Source: Pseudomonas paeninsulae | Lineage (GTDB): Bacteria; Pseudomonadota; Gammaproteobacteria; Pseudomonadales; Pseudomonadaceae | Length of the DNA stretch: 64,000 nt | Direction of reading: 5' to 3' | NCBI RefSeq assembly: GCF_035621475.1 | Contig: NZ_CP141799.1 | Span: 3,336,501-3,400,500 of the forward strand | Shown here: positions 8,310-21,294 of the stretch, piece after piece | Position numbering within the stretch: the stretch's first letter is position 1 | How the letters are laid out: each line of letters starts with the position of its first letter | Program-made: the position numbers and the translations under genes | The notes under the pieces: model-generated | The model's input: only the letters and a program-made list of their open reading frames with translations | The model's database searches: none | Told to the model about the DNA's origin: nothing

Positions 8310-9018
8310 GCGTGATGTGCTCCGGGAGTAATCGAGTCCAGCCGTTCTCAATCGAGTGATGCAGGACTGCGTCAGGGTCGTGATGGCCGGCTAGCTTTTT
8401 GGCGATCAGCTCGCAGGCTTTTTCTGTCATCCCGGATTTCTTGCGATGGGCGCACCAGTCAGCCCACGCATCAGCAGACACGTTGGCTGGCTTGGCGGTG
8501 AGCGGGTTGAACTTGGGCGGCTTCGAAGTCCCCGTTGCCGACGAAGTTGGCGACAAGGGTTTTTGATCTATTTGGTTATTGGTTATTGGTTCTTGGTTAG
8601 CTTCACGTCCGCTTTTTTCTGGGTTAGCGGATTGAAAGGGTGGGTTAAGGGTTGGGTTATTTTCTGCAAAGGGTTGGGTTGTTTCTGGGTTAGCGCCGGC
8701 CTTCTTCGGCCGCCCGCCTCGCTTGCCGTTATCCGACGCCAGCTTGGCTTTTACCTGGTACTGCTCGATCACCTCTTCGCAGTGGCCGTGCATCCAGCTG
8801 TTGTCGGACGCGACGAAAAACTCAGCAAGGACGGCCGCCACTTCCTCGACGTGAGCCTTCATGCGAATAACCCGCGCCAGCTGCTCTGGCGTGCCCTCCA
8901 GTCGCTGCTCGTTGATGTAGTACAGGTCGATCAGGCGGCGATAGGCCACGTCTTCAAGCGGGTCGAGGTGCGCCGTCCTGAGCATGTAGTCGCCCGGGTG
9001 GAATGGATAAAAATTCAC
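8122..9018 (-). CDS. Replication protein O-like, DUF1376 domain
   Basis: A 298-residue protein. Residues 1-90 are a DUF1376 domain (NFYPFHPGDYMLRTAHLDP, VAYRRLIDLYYINEQRL), a winged-helix DNA-binding module used by phage initiators. A low-complexity linker (residues 100-170; Asn/Pro/Lys-rich) leads to a C-terminal region with a WADWCAHRKKSGM segment. The product probably binds the phage origin, as O does in lambda, and works with the P-like protein encoded just downstream. The start overlaps the stop of the preceding HTH gene by four bases. Confidence 0.82.
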   Translation of the reverse strand: MNFYPFHPGDYMLRTAHLDPLEDVAYRRLIDLYYINEQRLEGTPEQLARVIRMKAHVEEVAAVLAEFFVASDNSWMHGHCEEVIEQYQVKAKLASDNGKRGGRPKKAGANPETTQPFAENNPTLNPPFQSANPEKSGREANQEPITNNQIDQKPLSPTSSATGTSKPPKFNPLTAKPANVSADAWADWCAHRKKSGMTEKACELIAKKLAGHHDPDAVLHHSIENGWTRLLPEHITHENGTPARATGRLSAVDQVKQAIAEREARSIREVATNPNRQALAENDRDVRAPLDGEFRHVG

Positions 9019-9374: not shown

Positions 9375-9566
9375 TCAGTCCTTCTTTTCCTTCTCTATGA
9401 GTCGTCTCAGGTCTTCGGTCAGCAGCTTGATGTGCTCGGCCATTGCCTCTAGATCGCTCAACCTCTCCCGCCCACCTGGCGCAGTCTCCCCGGCTACGCT
9501 GCTGCCTTTGGGGTGTCGTCCGCCTCCTGAGCTATCTTTCCTGGTGAGGACTCTTGCAGCAGCCAT
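9375..9566 (-). CDS. Small phage protein after cro
   Basis: A 63-residue ORF whose 5' part overlaps the last 73 bases of the Cro-like gene. The N-terminal half is basic and glycine-rich; the C-terminal half (LEAMAEHIKLLTEDLRRLIE) is an amphipathic helix with a KEKKD end. The start is uncertain: an internal ATG in front of that helix would leave about 20 residues. No family recognised. Confidence 0.45.
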   Translation of the reverse strand: MAAARVLTRKDSSGGGRHPKGSSVAGETAPGGRERLSDLEAMAEHIKLLTEDLRRLIEKEKKD

Positions 9567-9754
9567 TCAGCGGTGAATTTGCCGCCTGATGCTTCCGCCA
9601 GCTTTTCCGCGTATTTGGTTTCGCCCGTGTATTCGGTGCGAGGCAGGGATTTGGTGGTGAGCCACTTGTAAATGGCTCGCTGACTTACGCCGCAAACTGT
9701 CGCCGCTGCGGTTACGCCGCCGATCTTCTCGATTGCTTCTTTGAGCGCGCCCAT
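9494..9754 (-). CDS. cro: Cro-like repressor
   Basis: An 86-residue DNA-binding protein of the Cro/YdaS type, first gene of the leftward early operon. The helix-turn-helix is GGVTAAATVCGVSQRAIYKW, followed by LPRTEYTGETKYAEKLAEA, the usual continuation in Pseudomonas phage Cro proteins. AGGAGAG lies just before its ATG. It is divergent from the repressor gene, with the operator pair 9778-9815 between them, so it should shut down repressor synthesis during lytic growth. Confidence 0.85.
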   Translation of the reverse strand: MGALKEAIEKIGGVTAAATVCGVSQRAIYKWLTTKSLPRTEYTGETKYAEKLAEASGGKFTAEWLLQESSPGKIAQEADDTPKAAA

Positions 9755-9777
9755 GGTGCTGCTCTCCTGGTTTGCAT

Positions 9778-9820
9778 GAACTTACGGTACATATTATGCC
9801 GGAACTGAAAGTACACGCAA
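9778..9820 (-). promoter_or_regulatory. OR-like operators and PR-like promoter
   Basis: Two copies of a 14-bp site, read on the minus strand as TGTACCGTAAGTTC (9778-9791) and TGTACTTTCAGTTC (9802-9815), 24 bases apart. A minus-strand promoter overlaps them: TTGCGT (9815-9820), 18-base spacer, TAATAT (9791-9796), leading to cro. The core GTAC-N6-GTTC is a near-dyad, as expected for a dimeric repressor. The same site occurs twice more at 11248-11286. Confidence 0.75.
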
Positions 9821-9840
9821 GGTCATGCAACCATGAACAG

Positions 9841-10560
9841 ATGGTTCAATCAGAAGAAATACGCACGGACTTCGTTGTCCGCCTCAAAAAAGCCCTTGCA
9901 GCCTCCGGCATACCCGATAGAGGTGCGGGGGCGCGGCTATCGGAGATCACCGGGAAAACGGCTAAGGCGGCGAGCAAATGGCTCAACGCGGAGGCGATGC
10001 CTGGTCGAGCAAACATGCTGGCTATCGCTGAGGCGCTGAGCGTGCGCAGCGAGTGGCTTGAATATGGCTGGGGGCAGATGCTGAAGGGCCAGACCACTGC
10101 CGACATGGGTGCGCGCATCTCCCACGCCAACGTCGTGGAGATGCAGCAGCCCCATAGAGAGGTCAAGGAGTACCCATTGATAAGCTGGGTGGCGGCCGGG
10201 GCATGGCAGGAGTCATGCGACAACTTCAATCCGGGCGATGCGGACGAGTGGCTGATGTCCGACCACAACGCCGGGCCGCACGGCTATTGGCTGGAGATCA
10301 AGGGGCCGTCGATGCTGCCGACCTTCACCCCAGGCATGCGCATCCTGGTCAGACCGGAGGGCTTCGACTTGGTCAGCGGCAAGTACTACGTGGCTAAGTT
10401 GCTGGATACCGGCGAGACGACCTTTAAGCAGTACCTGCGCGACGGCGGCATGGGCTACTTGCAGCCTCTCAATCAGGCCTTCCCGGTGATTCCGATCGAT
10501 GAGGGGGTGGCCATGGTTGGGCTGGTTATCGACGCCAAATTGCCGGCCTCAATCTTCTAG
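9841..10560 (+). CDS. C2/CI-type prophage repressor, S24 peptidase fold
   Basis: A 239-residue repressor that holds the prophage silent. The N-terminal helix-turn-helix spans DRGAGARLSEITGKTAKAAS and the following recognition helix. A linker leads to a LexA-like self-cleavage domain: the serine is in IKGPSMLPTF, and the lysine in GETTFKQYLR. SOS/RecA induction is therefore expected. I prefer the ATG at 9841, since it leaves the operators free; an in-frame ATG at 9796 and TTG at 9772 lie inside them. No strong ribosome site is visible before any of these, which is common for repressors translated from a short leader. Confidence 0.88.
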   Translation: MVQSEEIRTDFVVRLKKALAASGIPDRGAGARLSEITGKTAKAASKWLNAEAMPGRANMLAIAEALSVRSEWLEYGWGQMLKGQTTADMGARISHANVVEMQQPHREVKEYPLISWVAAGAWQESCDNFNPGDADEWLMSDHNAGPHGYWLEIKGPSMLPTFTPGMRILVRPEGFDLVSGKYYVAKLLDTGETTFKQYLRDGGMGYLQPLNQAFPVIPIDEGVAMVGLVIDAKLPASIF

Positions 10561-10657
10561 ATGGGCGTCCGCTCCTGGCCGCCCTGACCGCTGACGCTGA
10601 CCCCTACTGACTGAGCCTCGCTGGAGCGCGGGCTCCCGCCCGACCCCTTGCCTAGCC

Positions 10658-11137
10658 CTAGTCCTGAATAGTCGTCAGCACTCCGTTATCGAAGTACAGG
10701 TACATCTGCTCGTACTCATTGTCATCGCTAACGCGGAACACGCGCTGCTCGCGCACGCCGAAGACTGTCTCGGTGACGTTCCTGGATTCAGCTCCGCGCC
10801 AATGGGGAATCGCCTCAACTTCGCCCTCGGTCATGCCGATGCGCAGGCCTTCACGCATGCGGCGGCTCGTATATTTAGCTCGCGCCCTCCCGGCTAGCTG
10901 CGCCTCCCGGGCATCGTGCTCAGCTGACCACTTGGCGTGAGCCTTTCGCTTCTCCTTAATTTCGATGTACAGCTTGTCAAGTCCTTGGGGAGGGGCGCTT
11001 TCGAGCTGCTCTGCTTTTGTTTCTGCGCCGCACGGGGAGTCGGTGAAATTGATCTTCCCGTCCGACCCTGTGCATTTATAGATTTGCGCGCTCGCCATAA
11101 GGGGAGCGAACAAGACAGCCATCAGCATTGCCCGCAT
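10658..11137 (-). CDS. Secreted DUF4124-domain protein, probable prophage moron
   Basis: A 159-residue protein with a signal peptide (AMLMAVLFAPLMASA) and directly after it a DUF4124 domain: IYKCTGSDGKINFTDSPCG. A charged helical middle and a C-terminal part with GLRIGMTEGEVEAI and VFRVSDDNEYEQMYLYFDNG (a SmpA/OmlA-like beta module) follow. It is exported. It lies between the repressor and the second operator pair, the slot of lambda rexAB, so it may be expressed in the lysogen. GGAGGTGAT precedes the ATG at 11135-11137. Confidence 0.72.
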   Translation of the reverse strand: MRAMLMAVLFAPLMASAQIYKCTGSDGKINFTDSPCGAETKAEQLESAPPQGLDKLYIEIKEKRKAHAKWSAEHDAREAQLAGRARAKYTSRRMREGLRIGMTEGEVEAIPHWRGAESRNVTETVFGVREQRVFRVSDDNEYEQMYLYFDNGVLTTIQD

Positions 11138-11201
11138 TGCATCACCTCCGTTTGAATTGTTGAGCTGAACGATACCAGCCAAAAGAGACTGACTCCATGC
11201 A

Positions 11202-11229
11202 AAGCCTCGCCATCGTGCGGGGCTTTTTT
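11202..11229 (+). terminator. Rho-independent terminator ahead of the PL-like promoter
   Basis: AAGCCTCGC-CATCG-TGCGGGGCTT followed by a T run on the plus strand. It sits about 20 bases before the first operator of the right-hand pair, so it would stop rightward transcripts, such as those from the repressor gene, before they enter the silenced early operon. Confidence 0.75.
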
Positions 11230-11247
11230 ACGCCCGCATGAAAAATA

Positions 11248-11291
11248 TGTACTTTTGGTTCTTGACTGGATTTGTACTTATGGTTCATATT
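11248..11291 (+). promoter_or_regulatory. OL-like operators and PL-like promoter
   Basis: Two direct copies of the repressor site, TGTACTTTTGGTTC (11248-11261) and TGTACTTATGGTTC (11273-11286), 25 bases apart, in the same spacing as at 9778-9815 but in the opposite orientation. A plus-strand promoter, TTGACT (11262-11267) with an 18-base spacer and CATATT (11286-11291), is interleaved with them and reads into the rightward early operon. Confidence 0.72.
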
Positions 11292-11491
11292 TGCACCCAT
11301 GGAAGCGCAACACACCGCGCAACCCGCAACACACAAGCCGGAGACTCGCCGGCTAGCACGGACAGGGCGAAACCTGACCCCAGCCACCTAACCGGTGACC
11401 GACTGGAACCAAAGTTCTTTAGCAGTACCGACGAATTACTGAAGCACCTGGGCGACCGGGTGTTTTGGAATCAAACCGGGAGGTAATCGAC

Positions 11492-20164: not shown

Positions 20165-21294
20165 GGAAGGCCGAGCTGCACAAGGCCGCCATTGATCACG
20201 CGATCGCCGCCGGCACCTTCGACTATGCCGCCACCTTCCCAAGCTCAAAGCGCGCCAGCCAGTTCAGGCGCAACACTGCAGTTATGACAATCGCCATGTA
20301 CCTGGGCGAGTGGCTGGAGCGCAAGCGCAAGCAGCTCAAGTCGAGCACTGCCGAACATTACCGGCAGCTGATCACCGGCCAGCTGATCCCCATGTTCGGC
20401 GCGCTACCCTTGGGCGAACTGACCCGCAAGCATGTGCGCGACGGTATGTCTCAGCGAACAGTCAGCAACAAGACCCTGACCAACCTGCAGAGCTGCCTGC
20501 GGTCGGCGCTGAATGACGCAGTCGATGACGAGGTCATTGAGGCCAGCCCCTTGGCAGGATGGAACTACCGCAACCGAGAAACCCAGAAGGAAGACGACGA
20601 CGTGGACCCGTTCACTGCGGCCGAGCAGGCGGCAATCCTGGCCGCGATCCCGCCTGAGCGGCGCCCGCAGGTACAGTTTGCATTCTGGACAGGGCTGCGC
20701 CCGAGCGAGTTGATCGCACTGGAATGGGGTGATGTGGACTGGCTGGCTGGCGAGGTGCGCATCGTGCGCGCCAAGACCCGGGCGGCCAGCAGTCCGGAGG
20801 CGCCAAAGACCGCCAGCGGTCGGCGCACCATCAAGCTCTTGGGGCCAGCGCGTGACGCGCTGCTCAAGCAGAAGGCGCAGACCTTCATGGCGGGCGGGCG
20901 AGTGTTCTGCCATCCGCTCACCGGCAAGCCCTGGGAGCACTCCGATGAGATCCGCAAAGTGTTGTGGGTGCACGCGCTGAAGAAATCCGGTGTGCGCTAC
21001 CGCCGCCCCTACCAGACCCGGCACACCTACGCGTCCATGATGCTGTCGGCCGGCGAGCATCCCATGTGGGTGGCGCATCAGATGGGGCACCGCGACTGGG
21101 CGATGATCGCCAGGATCTATGGCCGATGGATGCCGTCGGCAGACGCAGGTGCGGGAGCCCGAGCCGAGCAGCTTTTCGGAGGTAATGACAGCATTATGCC
21201 AACATCCGAGCCAGAGGCCGCGATTCTACTGGCGGCGCGCAAGGATACTAAACTGGCACTTAATGTCACTGGCCCAACAGGACAGCACGCCTAG
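20044..21294 (+). CDS. int: Phage integrase, tyrosine recombinase
   Basis: A 416-residue integrase. Residues 1-70 form an Arm-binding domain (IEITFQYQGVRCRERV), residues 80-170 a core-binding SAM-like domain, and the catalytic domain follows with the first Arg in AFWTGLRPSELIALEWGD, the Lys in the RIVRAKTR region, the HxxR motif in QTRHTYASMML, the second His in MGHRDWA and the tyrosine nucleophile in ARIYGRW. All catalytic residues are present. It starts 121 bases inside xis, with GAGGG before the ATG. As the last phage gene it marks the attachment side. Confidence 0.95.
   Translation: MGRDGRGVRAASDSSIEITFQYQGVRCRERVPLKPSATNLRKAELHKAAIDHAIAAGTFDYAATFPSSKRASQFRRNTAVMTIAMYLGEWLERKRKQLKSSTAEHYRQLITGQLIPMFGALPLGELTRKHVRDGMSQRTVSNKTLTNLQSCLRSALNDAVDDEVIEASPLAGWNYRNRETQKEDDDVDPFTAAEQAAILAAIPPERRPQVQFAFWTGLRPSELIALEWGDVDWLAGEVRIVRAKTRAASSPEAPKTASGRRTIKLLGPARDALLKQKAQTFMAGGRVFCHPLTGKPWEHSDEIRKVLWVHALKKSGVRYRRPYQTRHTYASMMLSAGEHPMWVAHQMGHRDWAMIARIYGRWMPSADAGAGARAEQLFGGNDSIMPTSEPEAAILLAARKDTKLALNVTGPTGQHA

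Follow-up and report, generated by a model that had tools for sequence, protein, structure and literature searches.

The window analysed here, a stretch of 64,000 nucleotides from Pseudomonas paeninsulae, contains at 9841..10560 (plus strand) the gene of a CI-type repressor of 239 residues, which combines an N-terminal helix-turn-helix, recognised by alignment, with a Peptidase_S24 domain. When aligned to repressors of the 933W type, its helix carries A41, K42 and K46, the latter two being shared with the 933W recognition helix. A Cro-like protein of 86 residues is encoded on the minus strand (9494..9754); its matches to P22_Cro and YdaS_toxin both fall slightly under the Pfam cut-offs, and it is assigned to phrog_35 (repressor). 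Its gene belongs to a leftward operon on the minus strand, together with a DUF1376 primosomal gene, a lambda P-like gene and ninG, while a rightward operon on the plus strand comprises an SSB gene, a DNA methylase gene and the integrase gene. With a phage portal gene in the stretch upstream, the region thus holds the gene set of a lambdoid prophage, that is, an S24 repressor, a Cro-like gene (below the Pfam cut-off), a replication P gene, ninG, an integrase gene and a portal gene. A 15-bp direct repeat at window position 21237 and at C1:3316894, 40.8 kb apart, is a candidate att site that would give the prophage a length of about 40.8 kb.

In lambda, the divergent promoters PR and PL flank cI and a Cro-like gene is the first of the PR operon, and the window shares both features. 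Lambda differs in having operators of 17 bp, three of them at OR and three at OL, and an OR3 located upstream of cI; a three-operator OL of this type was not found in the window, the OL of which has two sites with at most one mismatch. Between the repressor gene and OL lies, on the minus strand, an accessory gene (10658..11137) assigned to DUF4124, for which no counterpart was found in the phage records searched. Two genes, the repressor gene and this one, hence separate the operators, and not a single gene as a first-pass annotation of the region had proposed.

Five dyads at two outward promoters

The leftward promoter PR (9793..9820, minus strand) consists of the -35 element TTGCGT (9815-9820), a 16-bp spacer and the -10 element CATAAT (9793-9798), and the rightward promoter PL (11262..11290, plus strand) has TTGACT (11262-11267) and TCATAT (11285-11290). 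PL was listed by a promoter consensus scan, with an 18-bp spacer, and the same scan reported neither PR nor the putative repressor promoter PRM. Around these promoters an imperfect dyad of 15 bp (TGWACN5GTWCA), in which the half-sites TGAAC and TGTAC are interchangeable, occurs five times, with 0, 1, 0, 1 and 0 mismatches. Three of the sites, none assigned to a strand, make up OR: (i) OR1 (TGAACTTACGGTACA, 9777..9791) lies directly 3' of the PR -10 element, the same place (ATG-64) being occupied in relatives; (ii) OR2 (GGAACTGAAAGTACA, 9801..9815) lies inside the PR spacer and covers the putative PRM -35 element; and (iii) OR3 (TGAACAGATGGTTCA, 9834..9848) is a perfect dyad over the repressor start codon (ATG at 9841), again found at ATG-7 in relatives. 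The two sites of OL, likewise without strand, are OL1 (TGTACTTTTGGTTCT, 11248..11262), upstream of the PL -35 element and touching it, and OL2 (TGTACTTATGGTTCA, 11273..11287), within the PL spacer and -10 element. From centre to centre, the steps along the five sites are 24, 33, 1414 and 25 bp. OR3 is the most symmetric of them and the sole one in which the outer five bases match perfectly.

The first-pass annotation had described four copies of a 14-bp operator, two on the minus strand (9778-9791 and 9802-9815) and two on the plus strand (11248-11261 and 11273-11286), sharing the word TGTAC...GTTC. All four are present there, their spacing of 24-25 bases is right (24 bp at the OR pair, 25 bp at the OL pair), and both pairs indeed overlap promoters pointing outward. 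The matches to the word are thus real, but the oriented 14-bp unit is in fact a 15-bp dyad with interchangeable half-sites; likewise, two sites per operator is correct for OL but not for OR, the fifth site at 9834-9848 having been missed. In a scan with the 14-bp pattern, OR3 appears as a match with one mismatch. The four-site switch guessed initially is hence replaced by a five-site switch, the main elements of which have named precedent.

Relation to HK022 and 933W-type immunity regions

The closest precedent for the layout is the immunity record of Escherichia phage HK022 (X16093.1), which marks two oL and three oR sites of 15 bp with steps of 24, 33 and 24. In the orientation of the window, the HK022 sites read TGAACTTATGGTTCA, GGAACTGATAGTACA, TGAACTTATGGTTCA, TGTACTATTGGTACT and TGAACTTTAAGTACA, and are of the same sequence class as those described here. 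As in the window, OR3 lies over the cI start codon (ATG-7); the 16-bp pR and 17-bp pL spacers equal those of the window, and the operator offsets are nearly the same. The features shared with HK022 therefore include the five-site TGWACN5GTWCA layout, OR3 at ATG-7, the type of N-terminal domain, and Lys42 with Lys46. The N-terminal domains of the two repressors are 34% identical, and the OR3-OL1 distance is 1414 bp in the window, with the DUF4124 gene inside, versus 775 bp in HK022. A far operator ~300 bp beyond OR, and an OL3, are described for HK022 in PMC8053113. Neither has a counterpart with at most one mismatch between 8801 and 12000, where no further site of that quality was detected, and we do not treat them as defining the HK022 type. 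Words with two mismatches occur in that interval at 8919, 9363, 9658, 10690, 10966 and 11239, besides the five sites.

Phage phi24B (EF517298.1), of the 933W type, has OR1-OR3 marked as in the window, OR3 starting seven bases upstream of the cI start codon, and its repressor shares the K42/K46 helix. Its OR sites, at 244, 268 and 300, have one or two mismatches to the consensus and an OR2-OR3 step one base shorter than that of the window. Two Pseudomonas phages, vB_PstS-pAN and Riah, have repressors 58.7% and 51.4% identical to that of the window, respectively, and possess all five sites with the same steps within 1 bp, no operator being annotated in the stretches of these records that were examined. 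In HK022, pAN and Riah, OL lies about 10-80 bp from the end of cI, whereas the window has the DUF4124 gene in between.

Based on these sequence comparisons, we consider it highly probable that the locus represents the immunity region of a ~41-kb lambdoid prophage with an operator set of the HK022/933W type, comprising three OR and two OL repressor sites. It belongs to the known immunity regions of that type and is ordinary in kind and well explained. The proposal of the first-pass annotation that OR and OL are bound by the repressor encoded at 9841-10560 is strongly supported by the comparison with relatives, evidence that is comparative rather than biochemical in nature. CI dimers would bind every 15-bp dyad via the recognition helix and, by analogy with 933W, Lys42 would read base 2 and Lys46 base 5. 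For the 933W repressor, PMC3317979 reports a 15-bp site with conserved positions 2-5, stronger binding with T at position 3 than with the consensus A, and base contacts modelled for S41, K42 and K46, of which S41A and K46A were tested. Occupation of OR1 and OR2 would shut PR and hence cro as well as the leftward replication operon, and occupation of OL1 and OL2 would shut PL and the rightward operon ending in the integrase gene. At OR3, over its own start codon, CI would limit repressor synthesis in an autoregulatory manner. Cro is a probable competitor for these sites, and the switch would be released once the SOS response triggers self-cleavage of the S24 domain.

How CI occupies the sites may differ within this type. 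Cooperative binding of CI and looping between OL and OR are shown for HK022 (PMC8053113), and the same may hold for the window. An alternative, which we regard as possible though rather unlikely, is that the same sites are used in the manner of 933W, that is, with neither cooperativity nor looping, with occupancy governed by intrinsic affinity, and with strong autorepression at OR3. Two papers (PMC3317979, PMC5977221) report the 933W repressor to be non-cooperative and describe a five-site layout without OL3, which is also the layout seen here, and OR3 being the most symmetric site of the window would fit strong autorepression. However, the letters of the sites are at least as close to those of HK022, the CI of which is cooperative and looping (PMC8053113), and the CI of phi24B is only 29% identical to the window repressor over the whole length.

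Returning to the HK022-like switch, the putative PRM (9805..9841, plus strand) has its -35 element, CTGAAA, inside OR2 and a weak extended -10 element, TGC-AACCAT, the window version of the -10 itself (AACCAT) being weak. An alignment of 79 OR regions, namely those not found by operator pattern, revealed CTGAAA at -36 to -31 to be nearly invariant, with A at -32 in 96% and the other five bases in 100%, and a TGcgATattg element immediately before the ATG. Hence, the repressor mRNA is probably leaderless, with its -35 element inside OR2. The same observations, together with OR2 having its centre at -33 relative to the cI ATG and covering this -35 element, might suggest that CI on OR2 occludes PRM and does not activate it, so that the repressor would raise PRM activity only by silencing PR. 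We consider this doubtful: PMC5977221 reports a phase of PRM activation by the 933W repressor, and according to PMC4848623 the position of PRM with respect to the operators shows no class difference between the 933W type and lambda or 434.

Several smaller elements were noticed around PL. A plus-strand hairpin that resembles a terminator and has a T run behind it, identified by eye at 11200-11232 and absent from the listing of a hairpin scan, lies directly upstream of OL. An open frame of 30 codons (11299-11391, again by eye) starts some 8 bases downstream of the PL -10 element, and is consistent with a leaderless first PL message. Directly downstream of PL, at 11336-11354, a GC-rich hairpin (AGCCGGCGAGTCTCCGGCT, minus strand) occupies the place of the putative nutL of HK022, and could be an antitermination element.

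Conservation of the arrangement among related loci

Forty loci were gathered by repressor protein, including the window's own genome and five flagged duplicates. An OR triple with one summed mismatch was found in seven of them, all of which encode a similar N-terminal domain (identities, own genome aside, from 40/68 to 52/78 aligned residues), and in none of those in this set that have a different N-terminal domain. The larger protein searches took the best 80 of 458 relatives and 30 of 61 matches. Loci with this DNA-binding domain nearly always carry sites at these offsets. The exceptions are L066 and L236 and, in part, L192: L066 and L236, two contigs of equal length that may be one, encode this domain type but lack a start codon where one is expected, and in L066 the reading frame continues upstream, where no operators were found. 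L191, L194, L192 and L049 fit only by virtue of a 1-bp shift or weak sites, the OR1- and OR3-like sites of L049 being shifted by 1 bp. At unchanged offsets, L048 and L035 carry TCAAC in place of TGAAC.

A pattern scan of viral contigs (IMG/VR) yielded at least 120 stretches, with a relative of the repressor present in 74 of the first 80 listed; environmental phage contigs thus commonly carry the layout that is marked in HK022 and in phages of the 933W type. Since circularity affects OR1 and OR2 in the pattern-found set, our main counts come from loci that were not found by pattern. A scan of a genome collection for close relatives gave 42 stretches matching a pattern, none of which was confirmed, and a strict OR1-OR2 pattern retrieved from 369 genomes of the class only the window's own, being too strict to measure spread. 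In four of 80 pattern-found loci (L080, L116, L118 and L143; for example, L080:215), we noticed an extra operator-like site ~265 bp beyond OR1, away from the repressor gene, which may be the far operator described for HK022 in PMC8053113.

Among 164 distinct loci with an OR triple, taken from both sets and with the window included, an OL pair is present in 76 and was not seen in 10, while 78 are too short to tell. The pair is spaced by 24 bp in 47 of these 76 loci and by 25 bp in 29, and TTGAC[CTG] stands at the place of the PL -35 element in 53. The distance between OR3 and OL1 ranges from 758 to 4280 bp with a median of 1561 bp (1414 bp in the window), as might be expected if the interval served as a slot for accessory genes, of which the DUF4124 gene of the window was the one examined.

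A switch with two sites each at OR and OL, and no OR3, is what the exact 14-mer conveys when taken by itself, as it yields four sites only. We judge this very improbable and reject it on account of the site at 9834-9848, a perfect dyad at ATG-7, where OR3 is likewise located in HK022, pAN, Riah and the great majority of 118 distinct rows.

What sets the region apart is the arrangement of the sites and not the bare 14-bp word. Six exact matches to TGTACN5GTTC occur in the 64-kb window, four of them being the sites noted initially, versus a mean of 0.18 and a maximum of 2 in 100 shuffles of the window, yet genome-wide the pattern is ordinary, with 41 matches in 5.35 Mb as compared with 64 for a reversed control pattern. 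The OR triple was assessed by summing mismatches over sites at -64, -40 and -7 from any ATG: a sum of at most one was reached in none of 300 dinucleotide shuffles of the window (lowest 10, observed 1), and the second-best ATG of the actual window sums to 11. Near-exact pairs of sites 24 or 25 bp apart, of which two were observed, were likewise absent from 300 shuffles, and a composite OR1-OR2 pattern has one match in the whole genome. Many matches elsewhere, the outcome that was to speak against the operators, are hence a property of the word and not of the arrangement. That the repeats arose by chance or from promoter sequence, or are sites of a host regulator, as the 41 genomic matches might suggest, has negligible probability given the failure of all 300 shuffles to produce the triple and the link between site conservation and the domain type of a phage repressor.

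Residue 42 and operator base 2

The fixed geometry makes many natural loci readable as a data set of repressors and their operators, with at least three apparent specificities. Across the loci, residue 42 of the recognition helix pairs with base 2 of the operator as Lys-G, Gln-C and Pro-T. The count covers 179 distinct rows from both sets, with base 2 read in the four half-sites of OR1 and OR3, and neither a Lys-C nor a Gln-G row was encountered among the loci that could be read. Among rows not found by pattern, Lys42 goes along with G in all four half-sites in 60 and in three half-sites in L234 and L235, while L192 has G in two half-sites, with A in one of the halves of its poor OR3; Gln42 goes along with C in all four half-sites in 11 rows and in three in 2. 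The pattern-found rows comprise 97 with Lys42 and G in all four half-sites and one further G row in which the helix is cut off. The loci left unread are L054, L066 and L236 and, among those found by pattern, L190, L151 and L094.

Further loci extend the series. L316 is an additional Lys-G case. L317 and L318, both from one genus and kept outside the tree, have Pro at position 42, a protein start of MVK and TTAAC at ATG-7; a TTAAC dyad follows 780 bp downstream (exact in L317, one mismatch in L318), and no clear OR1 or OR2 sites were seen at the usual places in these two. The 19 loci from a phylum search (L320-L338), which possess a more distant domain and no clear dyads at the three offsets (L326 had no start), were left out of the count, as was the ambiguous L319. 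A tree of 58 thinned domains places the Gln42 rows in a single clade that requires one change, so that the comparison of Lys with Gln amounts to a single evolutionary event.

Relative to the repressor ATG, the operators occupy fixed positions (mostly -64, -40 and -7), and on balance we favour the view that specificity can therefore be read from the repressor's own gene, with residue 42 and base 2 changing together. With OR3 spanning codons 1-3, a change of operator would also have to alter the third residue of the repressor (Q/H, D/E and K for the three pairings, respectively), the operator thus constraining its own reader. No published record of such a residue-42 series was found in the open-access literature searched; this specificity series alone may be new, and merits a wider look.

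Within the genus of the window, twelve loci (L304-L315) out of 22 similar-scoring matches in 398 genomes encode Gln42 repressors with TCAAC operators, one of which, L315, is not counted in the Gln42 tallies above and likewise fits the Gln-C pairing. These repressors are possibly common prophage or tailocin regulators, and in L305 and L313 a Cro-like open frame adjoins the Gln42 repressor gene.
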